A stretch of DNA of 64,000 nt, from assembly GCA_951394045.1 (NCBI GenBank), contig OX595999.1, positions 1,116,001 to 1,180,000 of the forward strand, given 5' to 3'. This DNA comes from Nitzschia sp. DOCU1. Its lineage: Eukaryota > Bacillariophyta > Bacillariophyceae > Bacillariales > Bacillariaceae. Below the pieces are notes generated by a model. It did no database searches. It worked only from the letters and a program-made list of their open reading frames with translations, and was not told where the DNA came from. Below are positions 24,808 through 28,003 of this stretch, piece by piece. How positions within the stretch are numbered: the first letter of the stretch is position 1; the number at the start of each line of letters is the position of its first letter. A program made the position numbers and the translations under genes.

Positions 24808-25791
24808 ATGCCGTCTTTGGTGGCAATTCTGAGGAACCGTATCCTCGCAGTTCTGTTGCTTTCGCACATTGCAAAAGCAATGAATATCGAGAAAGTCTCG
24901 GAGAAGTCCCCAATCGCCAAGCCAATTCTAACCGGAGCTGTCGAATTCTCGTCGCCCATGCGTCCCCGTGTGGTAGATATCGGCGTCAACTTGACGCACA
25001 AAGCTTTCCAAAATCGATGGAAGGATGTGGTTCGACAGGCAATTGTCGCGGGTGTGGATACAATTCTGCTGACAGGGACTTGTTTGGATCGATCACGCCA
25101 GTGCATGGAAATGGCTCAGCAATGGCTGGATGAAGAAGGTGGTACTCCTAATCTTTTCTTCACGGTCGGTGTTCATCCTCACGATGCCAAGACGTGGAGA
25201 GATGATGTCACATCAACACAAGCCATGAAAGAACTATTAAAGCACCCCCTGGCGGTTGCCGTGGGCGAGTGTGGGCTGGACTATAACCGCAACTTTAGCT
25301 CGAAGGAAGAACAAAACCTTGCGTTTCTTCGTCAAGTGGAGCTAGCGTGTGAGTGCAATCTCCCGCTCTTTCTTCATGAACGAGAAGGCCATGAGGATCT
25401 AGTCAAGGTGCTGGATGAGGTTGCCAAGACAAAGACGTTGCCACCGATTGTTGTACATTGCTTTACAGGTACAGAGGCTGAAGCCTTGGCATACATCGAA
25501 CGAGGCTACTTTATTGGCTTTACGGGAACCATTTGCAAGAAGGAACGGGGGGCACCATTGCGTGCATTGTTGCCTAAGCTTCCATTGGACCGTCTGATGG
25601 TAGAAACAGATGCCCCCTTCATGGGCTTTCAAAAGGGCAAGAGGAGCAGCTCTCCAGCTGATTGCGCCGACGTTGCCAAAAAATTGGCCGAGACGATGGG
25701 GATTTCGTTGGAGCATGCGTGCCAAACCACGACGGAGACAGCACTAAGTTTTTTCCAAATCCCCAAGGACTTGACCATGCCGAAGAAATGA
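24808..25791 (+). CDS. TatD-family metal-dependent deoxyribonuclease (TATDN1-like)
   Basis: 327 residues, a TIM-barrel hydrolase of the TatD group, which removes nucleotides from DNA ends in DNA repair and apoptosis-like DNA degradation. The first strand reads VVDIGVNLTHKAF, which lacks the bacterial HxH as eukaryotic TATDN1 proteins do. Further metal and catalytic residues are in VGECGLDY, LFLHERE, VVHCFTG and MVETDAPFM. The spacing and length match the family. The first ~25 residues are hydrophobic with a few basic residues (MPSLVAILRNRILAVLLLSHIAKA), which suggests a signal or mitochondrial presequence absent from cytosolic homologues. A second ATG at MNIEKV could give a form lacking it. 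Confidence 0.92.
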   Translation: MPSLVAILRNRILAVLLLSHIAKAMNIEKVSEKSPIAKPILTGAVEFSSPMRPRVVDIGVNLTHKAFQNRWKDVVRQAIVAGVDTILLTGTCLDRSRQCMEMAQQWLDEEGGTPNLFFTVGVHPHDAKTWRDDVTSTQAMKELLKHPLAVAVGECGLDYNRNFSSKEEQNLAFLRQVELACECNLPLFLHEREGHEDLVKVLDEVAKTKTLPPIVVHCFTGTEAEALAYIERGYFIGFTGTICKKERGAPLRALLPKLPLDRLMVETDAPFMGFQKGKRSSSPADCADVAKKLAETMGISLEHACQTTTETALSFFQIPKDLTMPKK

Positions 25792-26275: not shown

Positions 26276-26866
26276 ATGAGTTGCGGGGGTGGTACTTGTC
26301 GCCGCCAAGGTGCAGAAGCATTTTCGTCCCAATCCCATCACGACGATAACAGCGACGAAGAAGAACTGGAATCGTGCCGCAAATTAGAGCTTGTGCCAAG
26401 TTCGCCAGGCAATGACTTGTTAATTGTTGGGTGTGGATGATTCTGGACAGGCCAGCTAAAATATCAACGTCTGGATGGTGTGGTGCAAGTTATGGCGGGC
26501 TATTCCGGCGGTCTTCAACCCAACCCAACGTACAATGATGTGTTGGACCACTCCGAAGCGCTGTGGATTGAATACGATCCGTCTCAAGTATCTCTAGAAG
26601 AGCTGCTAGTTGCTTGGACCAAAATGCACAAACCTGAAAAGCCCGTCGCTCGCCAATACCGCTCGGCAGTCTGGTTTCTAAACGAGGCTCAAAGGGTAGC
26701 TGCCAACAAAGTTGTTTCTGAATGGACTGAAACTCACAAGGAAAAGCTAGGAGATTCACCTGCTGTTCTCTACACAACTGTGGAACCCGCTACATTTTTC
26801 TATCAGGCCGAGTCCTATCACCAAGACTATTACATCCGAACCGGCCAAGCCCGCTTCGTACAGTAG
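26276..26866 (+). CDS. msrA: Selenocysteine-containing peptide methionine sulfoxide reductase A, in-frame UGA at codon 55
   Basis: Translation from the ATG at 26276 is open to 26866 except for one TGA at 26438-26440. Reading that TGA as selenocysteine (U) gives GCGUFWTGQLKYQRLDGV. The U falls exactly where MsrA enzymes have the catalytic Cys of GCFWG. Downstream are the family blocks GYSGG, PTYNDV, YDPSQVS, QYRSAVWF and AESYHQDYY. The product is 196 residues. MsrA reduces methionine-S-sulfoxide in proteins, and a Sec active site makes the reaction faster. A SECIS-like hairpin lies about 30 nt after the TAG stop, which strongly supports Sec insertion over a pseudogene. No targeting signal is evident, so the enzyme is probably cytosolic. 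The N-terminus carries Cys residues (MSCGGGTC) and an acidic run. Sec-MsrA is known from Chlamydomonas. Confidence 0.93.
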
Positions 26867-26895
26867 CAGACTGCAGCTCTGGCTCGTCATTTTGC

Positions 26896-26975
26896 ATTCA
26901 TGATCCCGGGAATGACAGGCCTTGAAACTATTTGTCACCAACATAGCTTCTAGACCTTGAAGCATGGGAATGAAT
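26896..26975 (+). promoter_or_regulatory. SECIS-like stem-loop in the msrA 3' UTR
   Basis: Helix I pairs ATTCAT (26896-26901) with ATGAAT (26970-26975), and TCCC (26904-26907) with GGGA (26966-26969). After an internal loop comes the SECIS core, ATGA at 26912-26915 against TGAA at 26958-26961, giving tandem G.A pairs. Helix II runs 26917-26931 against 26943-26957 with three isolated mismatches. An AAA run (26925-26927) lies about 9-10 nt after the ATGA, close to the spacing of the conserved SECIS AA. The apical loop is 11 nt. Found by hand pairing. Confidence 0.85.
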
Positions 26976-26989
26976 ATCAAATGCAATGA

Positions 26990-27505
26990 GAATATCCCAC
27001 CAAGCCCGATCCGAAACTCCAAGAATGGTCGAATGAGTCGTGGTGGCGTCTTCCCGTCCATCCGCCGTCTCACACCCCTAAATTCGATGACGTGGCGTGC
27101 CACTTTCGGCGTATCACGTGGCGAACTGTGAAAGTACATTTTTACGTGAAATTAGTACTGGACCAAGAACACGATCTTTCGAAAGACGCAGTTTTCCACC
27201 GCGCGCTTCCGAACCCTCTCGTGGCCACTGACGACGAGATCTCGAGGTGATGTCCTTTCGTGGACGCATCGACGTATCTTCACACTTTCTTTCGAACACA
27301 TCCAACGGTAGTTTCCAGCTCTAAAGTTCATTAGCTTTTGGGTCTGTCTTCCCAGATCCACTTGTCATTTCAGCTGTTTGTCTGTTGCCTTGTTGCATTC
27401 TTCAACAGTCTCTCAGTTGTTTCCTAAAGCCAAAAGCACACGAGCGACAAACTTTTCACCTATTACCCGAAAGCCTCGTTTATTTTATCCAACTGCACCA
27501 AGACC
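26990..27505. other. Intergenic region between msrA and clpS
   Basis: 516 bp with no supported gene. It includes the clpS promoter. Confidence 0.5.
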
Positions 27506-28003
27506 ATGTGCCGATCCATTTCCAAGTCTATCCTTGCTGGAGTTTTTTTTCTTTGGTTGTCCCTAGCAGGACACACCCATGCCTTTTCCCAGCGCCCGGC
27601 CTTTGTGAAAGCCACAGTCCAGGCCTCTACCACCACCAGCTCGCCTTCCTTTGCTTCCCCCCTTATTATGAGCAGTGGCCCCGCCATTTTGGATCGACCA
27701 GAGACGGTGGAAGAGGTGGATGTTGACGAAGACAAAAAGACAGAACGTGAGAACAAATTAGGAGGCGAAGGCTGGGAGATTCGATTGTTCAACGACCCCT
27801 TCAACAAGCGAGAATTTGTCGCTCGTTGCCTGGCTACGATTTGTGGCAAATCGGACACGGAATCCTACCAAATCATGATGGAAGCCCACAAAAATGGAAT
27901 GGGAGTAGTGGGTCGATACCAGTTTGAAATTGCGGAACTCTACCATGGCTCGTTGCGTGAAAATGGACTCGTGGTGGACATGGTTCCTGTGGATGACGAA
28001 TAA
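27506..28003 (+). CDS. clpS: Plastid ClpS-like N-recognin adaptor
   Basis: 165 residues. An N-terminal signal peptide (SILAGVFFLWLSLAGHTHA|FSQRP) with an ASAFAP-like junction is followed by a Ser/Thr-rich transit region. The ClpS core begins near residue 90 with IRLFNDPFNKREFVARCLATI and continues through IMMEAHKNGMGVVGRYQFEIAELYHGSL. ClpS proteins deliver N-degron substrates to the Clp protease. The Asn-Asp pair in LFNDP and the His of MEAHKNG correspond to the residues that hold the substrate N-terminus in bacterial ClpS. The length fits the family once targeting sequence is removed. It should act in the plastid stroma with ClpC. Confidence 0.88.
   Translation: MCRSISKSILAGVFFLWLSLAGHTHAFSQRPAFVKATVQASTTTSSPSFASPLIMSSGPAILDRPETVEEVDVDEDKKTERENKLGGEGWEIRLFNDPFNKREFVARCLATICGKSDTESYQIMMEAHKNGMGVVGRYQFEIAELYHGSLRENGLVVDMVPVDDE

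Follow-up and report, generated by a model that had tools for sequence, protein, structure and literature searches.

A very probable selenocysteine-containing methionine-S-sulfoxide reductase and its candidate SECIS element in the genome of a probable diatom

An otherwise intact frame for a methionine-S-sulfoxide reductase (MsrA) that is crossed by a TGA at its catalytic residue raises the question of whether this codon is a stop, an error or a codon for selenocysteine (Sec), and, if the last, which element 3' of the gene would serve it. The initial annotation of the locus had offered Sec as the simplest reading and had proposed a hand-folded hairpin in the 3' UTR as the SECIS element. Here, we analyze this gene (MsrA1) in its window, a 64-kb stretch of DNA (C15:1116001-1180000) from a 52.08-Mb eukaryotic assembly of 63 contigs, along with related genes elsewhere in the same assembly. 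The homologs, the TGA-bearing paralogs, the Sec machinery and the SECIS candidate all support that reading: the gene very likely encodes a selenoprotein methionine-S-sulfoxide reductase (Sec-MsrA), with Sec, we infer, inserted at the UGA itself.

The MsrA1 frame and its in-frame TGA

The MsrA1 frame (Table 1) contains one in-frame TGA ahead of its TAG stop, which turns the expected catalytic Cys into the U of a GUFW motif. The Pfam profile PF01625 matches residues 50-190, that is, both sides of the TGA (E 4.5e-32, 111.8 bits against a cut-off of 23.7), and TIGR00401 scores just under its cut-off on the same frame (102.5 vs 108.1). The frame also matches 30 distinct PDB sequences, and in the three alignments examined the TGA stands opposite the catalytic Cys, with GCFW there and GUFW here. 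The coincidence of the single TGA with the catalytic residue, on which the proposal of Sec had been founded, is thus borne out by these structures and by the Cys or Trp that full-length homologs carry at the same position (see below). Likewise, only the part after the TGA (26480-26866, 128 aa) survives in this frame as an ordinary ORF of at least 60 aa, as had been anticipated. An intron with GT..AG ends across the TGA (26431-26450) was considered by eye and rejected, as at 20 nt it is too short, shifts the frame and removes the active site.

MsrA1 is 54-72% identical to the homologs P0001-P0010 and has the N-terminal MSCxxxxCRR in common with P0001. The DHSE motif is common to it and PDB entry 4u66; this entry and 4lwj-4lwl we take to be MsrA of Clostridium oremlandii. 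All its cysteines (Cys3, Cys8, Cys34 and Cys53) precede the Sec position. In the proposed mechanism, the Sec selenol would attack the sulfoxide of Met-S-O and release Met. Because no Cys follows Sec, the resulting selenenic acid would be resolved either by a preceding Cys, namely Cys53 of the CGU motif or the N-terminal Cys3 or Cys8, or by a thiol from outside the protein, glutaredoxin or glutathione for example. Insertion of Sec would presumably involve SBP2. Just upstream on the same strand lies an ORF (24808-25791), by eye a putative TatD-type hydrolase, that ends on a TGA.

Table 1. Features of the MsrA1 locus in window coordinates, with the tandem tRNA-Sec genes in contig coordinates
Feature	Position	Strand	Basis
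Predicted Sec-MsrA coding frame, 196 codons plus TAG	26276..26866	+	ATG 26276, translation, PF01625, homolog alignment
In-frame TGA, proposed Sec codon, residue 55, catalytic nucleophile	26438..26440	+	Frame, alignments, homologs
Active-site motif G-C-G-U-F-W; Cys53 two residues ahead of Sec	26429..26446	+	
TAG stop codon	26864..26866	+	
SECIS element candidate, 3' UTR	26898..26977	+	Match of model R1, 15.2 bits
Lower stem UCCC, partner of GGGA 26966-26969	26904..26907	+	
SECIS core 5' half, AUGA; GGGA before, C after (GGGA-AUGA-C 26908-26916)	26912..26915	+	
Helix II 5' strand; 8 of 10 positions pair with 26948-26957	26917..26926	+	
Apical A-run AAA, 9 nt past AUGA; two bases could pair in helix II instead	26925..26927	+	
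Apical mini-stem CUAU/AUAG, 26928-26931 with 26943-26946	26928..26946	+	
Helix II 3' strand	26948..26957	+	
SECIS core 3' half, UGAA	26958..26961	+	
Lower stem GGGA, partner of UCCC 26904-26907	26966..26969	+	
Four tRNA-Sec genes in tandem (L009-L011, L013); fifth gene on C6	C5:639526-640069		

Paralogs, homologs and the Sec machinery

MsrA-like sequences were found at 11 places in the genome, MsrA1 included, eight of which were read, that is, all but three weak matches (C13:1161527, C2:314508 and C1:5033263). The three paralogs closest to MsrA1 (L002, L003 and L004) carry a TGA at the same codon, again within GUFW. In L003 the motif lies within one exon; in L002 and L004 it lies in the first exon, ahead of introns that we read as 77 and 73 bases long. 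The Cys of CGU (Cys53 of MsrA1) recurs in MsrA3 and MsrA4, with SGU instead in MsrA2, and each TGA-bearing paralog has a candidate SECIS element 3' of its stop. More distant copies (L005-L008) have Cys: GCFW in L005-L007 and, at the start of the matched stretch, QCFW in L008. A stop-free copy that would expose the TGA as an error, named at the outset as a finding that would refute Sec, did not turn up among the copies read; the closest copies are precisely those with a TGA at this codon.

To place the site among its relatives, we collected 226 different proteins from the best 120 of 151 and the best 120 of 7697 matches (7994 candidates scored). Among these matches, the residue aligned with the TGA is Cys in 138, Trp in 11 and any other residue in none; a further 66 start after the site, and in 11 the residues before it are unalignable. 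The Trp at the position of a catalytic nucleophile probably reflects gene callers misreading a TGA, to judge from the alignments. The late starts fit a TGA too, and contig ends or introns may explain some of them. The Sec reading of MsrA1 corrects an annotation otherwise truncated or split, as apparently befell those late-starting homologs among the matches listed.

A tree of 48 chosen rows, 44 of them from the 226 proteins and picked to represent all three classes (Cys, Trp and truncated), groups MsrA1 with the truncated P0004 and P0008 (96/91), MsrA2 with the Trp-bearing P0134 (99/93) and MsrA3 with the truncated P0136 (99/92); MsrA4 is not placed. The group of MsrA2 includes P0178, which has the UniRef name of a diatom, Entomoneis paludosa; on this basis the assembly, too, is probably that of a diatom. 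The TGA of MsrA looks old and not like a recent error, because the homologs with which three of the four paralogs group are different ones in each case, and are Trp-bearing or truncated. The Cys forms P0001-P0003, which are among the closest relatives of MsrA1 in the matches listed, cluster together (99/91) within the wider MsrA1 group (96/92), and two more Cys rows (P0124 and P0130) fall within the wider clade. If a TGA underlies the Trp residues and late starts, the Sec codon would be older than the species and Sec would have given way to Cys in a sister lineage.

These patterns bear on the reading of MsrA1 as a pseudogene or a sequencing error, with a chance TGA in place of TGC or TGT. One base separates TGA from either Cys codon and the Cys homologs P0001-P0003 do exist; however, three divergent paralogs have the TGA at the same codon, many homologs have Trp at the site or begin after it, and the genome encodes Sec machinery, so that we regard such an accident as highly improbable.

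This machinery includes five tRNA-Sec genes that score 72-74 bits against the Rfam cut-off of 47; of three of their sequences compared, two are identical and the third differs by one base. ARAGORN reports tRNA-Sec with the anticodon tca in the two loci scanned. On control genomes the same Rfam search gave some match in 14 of 14 and one over the cut-off in 5 of 14. SepSecS is encoded on C3, the fourth domain of eEFSec on C5 (two matches, one crossing a TAG) and SPS2 on C10, with an in-frame TGA of its own (KGUACK). A search for KTI12/PSTK yielded five matches in three places, in which PSTK and KTI12 are not distinguishable. A reassignment of TGA to Cys or Trp across the nuclear genome could, at face value, appeal to the Trp seen at the site in those 11 of 226 listed homologs. 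It would have to contend with a tRNA-Sec bearing the anticodon tca and with the adjacent ORF (24808-25791) that stops on TGA, and can be given almost no credence. The in-frame TGAs read in this genome sit, we take it, at the Sec positions of selenoprotein families, which also counts against reassignment.

The candidate SECIS element

The initial annotation had called for the hairpin to be checked with a eukaryotic SECIS model. The Rfam model SECIS_1 (RF00031) gave no match at the MsrA locus and none in the genome as a whole at E 10, where 134 of 977 first-look candidates were scored; since it matches nowhere in the genome, it cannot judge the MsrA1 element. A model was instead built from the genome itself, and this does pick out the hairpin in question. 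To this end, other TGA-bearing genes (three GPx, SelT-like, PDI, thioredoxin-like, SPS2 and SelU-like genes) were searched for SECIS elements. An initial scan that demanded an AA following NTGA was abandoned, having yielded a clean ATGA-type element in GPx1 alone; with that demand dropped (UGA ... GA plus an adjoining helix), strong candidates emerged in GPx1, GPx2, SelT, PDI and SPS2, while the thioredoxin-like and SelU-like elements were chosen with AATGA also demanded. Direct MAFFT alignment of the full elements failed in the 3' half, and the apical loops were trimmed instead. The resulting model, R1, comprises nine trimmed and aligned elements of seven selenoprotein genes and no MsrA. At each of the 10 pairs of its training helix II both partners vary, and the covariation is 1.05 versus 0.30 in shuffles, a value favoured by the choice of elements for having a helix.

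In the window, the best R1 match is 26898-26977 on the plus strand (15.2 bits, E 0.61), followed by one of 9.9 bits; within 26276-27506 the same match has E 0.012, on a rough calibration, and the next scores 4.6 bits. The best score was 13.6, and none reached 15.2, across 91,023 bases (both strands) of 28 control loci, which came from 55 thioredoxin-family matches and were not read as genes; two others of the 55 carry TGA. R1 was also run on 25 loci (87,189 bases), among which L001 repeats the window's own site and L003 and L069 overlap. Elements outside the training set scored 16.8 (GPx3), 16.5 (MsrA4), 12.1 (MsrA3), 11.3 (MsrA2) and 11.2 bits (SelU1); SelU3 reached 36.8 bits, being a near copy of a training element. 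Scores of 11-12, as in MsrA2 and MsrA3, are not distinctive alone, because L005 and L070, loci in which no TGA gene was seen, score 13.4 and 13.1 and a control 13.6; the 15.2 of MsrA1 tops the controls by a small margin.

A second model, R2, adds MsrA3 and MsrA4 to the R1 set. It again places the MsrA1 site first in the window (16.9 vs 11.4 for the next; E 0.29), but by an alignment that covers the 5' part with an implausible zero-length loop and is not a sound structure, and so brings no better reading of this hairpin. R2 scores MsrA2 at 18.1 and GPx3 at 17.1, against 12.4 for the best control, and finds no SECIS for SelM, a gene with its own in-frame TGA, where its best match is 7.3.

As for the hairpin itself, the parts recognized by hand folding, namely the AUGA/UGAA quartet, the A-run and the lower stem, are present; the AUGA/GA core lies 3' of the MsrA stop on the same strand, in the presumed 3' UTR. 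AA occurs at offsets 9 and 10 from AUGA, in agreement with an expected AA or CC 10-13 nt on. The pairing is rare in its surroundings: of 76 AATGA..TGA pairs on both strands of the window, the MsrA1 hairpin alone combines 8 or more of 10 in-register pairs with pairing at the first three positions; in the control loci the same test is passed by 2 of 171, and 1 of 171 has at least 12 of 15. Energy folding is less favourable to the hairpin. The bases of the lower stem pair with a probability of 0.63-0.97 across three folded stretches. The hairpin core, at -10.0 kcal/mol vs -15.1 for the preferred alternative, is not the minimum-energy fold. Helix II has 12 possible pairs with 1x1 mismatches, their probabilities are 0.10-0.14, and the hairpin makes up about 13% in unconstrained folding. 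The 3' UTR of MsrA folds no better than shuffles (z -0.09). A failure of the computed structure to give a SECIS fold had been named as grounds for rejection; this came about in part, as the energy minimum is another fold, and yet R1 ranks the hairpin first in the window. Summed over helix II, the pair probability of MsrA1 is 1.2, the lowest of 16 elements, the 15 others having at least 6.4. In these predicted folds MsrA1 does stand apart from the other elements, which is the main weakness of the case. The energy model gives no credit to a non-Watson-Crick core or to bound protein. We take 26898-26977 to be the SECIS element of MsrA1 with moderate confidence.

The weak fold can be accommodated in two other ways. 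In one, UGA would encode Sec, with the working SECIS elsewhere in the 3' UTR (downstream or across an intron) or as another fold of the same stretch. The energy minimum, the silence of the Rfam model at MsrA and the failure of R2 on SelM are all compatible with this; both models nevertheless put 26898-26977 first in the window, the next R1 match near the gene being that of 4.6 bits, and we think a different element unlikely. In the other, MsrA1 would be a Sec-MsrA on its way to losing Sec, with the TGA still in place, the SECIS decaying and little full-length enzyme made, as in a lineage whose sisters P0001-P0003 are now Cys forms. Here the weakest fold of 16 and the supported nesting of those Cys forms within the wider MsrA1 group would be expected; against it, the protein is intact before and after the TGA and its frame has no other stop, its identity to P0001-P0010 is 54-72%, and the core motif GGGAAUGAC and UGAA are retained. 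Such decay appears quite unlikely, and a Sec-MsrA served by the hairpin 26898-26977 is the reading that we prefer.

Known systems, the apical motif and other selenoprotein genes

Sec-MsrA is already known in diatoms and other algae, and MsrA1 adds a member. It is not a new kind of gene, because PMC2375036 counts one MsrA among the 16 selenoproteins of Thalassiosira pseudonana and PMC7539508 names MSRA as one of the most widespread algal Sec proteins. As far as these two sources describe them, the algal forms (T. pseudonana, Ostreococcus and Chlamydomonas) agree with the present one in Sec, in a 3' UTR SECIS and in belonging to an aquatic microalga; in contrast, four divergent Sec-MsrA genes occur here in one genome, a comparison made on published descriptions. 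These four seemingly old paralogs, together with the Cys forms nested beside one of them, offer a natural series on the retention and loss of Sec at one catalytic site. The bacterial enzyme of C. oremlandii (PDB match 4lwm; PMC4479559) likewise carries Sec at its catalytic position with no Cys downstream; unlike MsrA1 with its four Cys, it has no Cys and carries an extra C-terminal helical domain. The same paper gives its Sec form as 20-fold more active than the Cys form and the Sec enzyme without Cys as reduced by glutaredoxin and not by thioredoxin.

The elements of this genome resemble the eukaryotic SECIS (RF00031, and the search pattern of PMC2375036) in the AUGA ... GA core, a helix of about 10 positions, the lower stem, the internal loop and the location in the 3' UTR. 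They differ from RF00031, apart from its lack of matches, in that apical AA/CC is not enriched and that AUGA is commonly preceded by GA and followed by C. Bacterial SECIS are of a different kind from eukaryotic ones. AA or CC at offsets 10-13 after AUGA is present in 4 of 15 distinct elements as against 40% of 1006 ATGA sites, and at offsets 9-16 in 6 of 15 as against a background of 65%, counts with which an AA or CC deeper in the apical loop remains compatible. On the other hand, A precedes AUGA in 15 of 15 (partly demanded by the filters), G precedes that A in 14 and C directly follows AUGA in 13; the elements of L062, L063, L064, L065, L066, L067, L068, L069, L071 and L072 for the most part have the core GAAUGAC in common, without enrichment of apical AA/CC. 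We tentatively raise the possibility, in which we place limited confidence, that the SECIS of this lineage need no apical AA/CC (AAR) and are recognized via an extended core (GAAUGAC ... UGAN) and helix II. AA/CC is demanded by the search pattern of PMC2375036, the AAR motif is named as part of the eukaryotic element in PMC2746813, and PMC3706390 treats it as essential, one of two essential motifs. Standard patterns demanding AA/CC would overlook 11 of the 16 elements, among them the ones behind three of the four Sec-MsrA genes; were AA/CC truly dispensable, the rule of two essential motifs (PMC3706390) would need revision for this lineage. In the literature searched, which mostly does not extend to subscription papers, no paper on diatom SECIS without enriched AA/CC was found.

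Several other selenoprotein genes have features of their own. At the SelU-like locus L071, R1 has a match of 14.8 bits (2417-2487) about 400 bases past the presumed SECIS of SelU1 (11.2 bits). Two SelU-like copies (L072, C3:3142227; L074, C38:8759) are near-identical; both contain LGUPLC, and their SECIS candidates hardly differ. The SelM-like gene (L084, C3:272000) has CSGUQLK in frame, and its frame continues long past the domain. A thioredoxin/PDI-like gene on C5 (L062:1032-1949) combines an unusual active site, VGUGYC, with a strong SECIS candidate directly 3' of its stop. Finally, the 3' UTR of SPS2 (L068:1679-2296, C10) holds three SECIS-like elements in a row with near-identical helix arms, which score 41.7, 49.7 and 21.2 bits with R1, of whose training set they are part.
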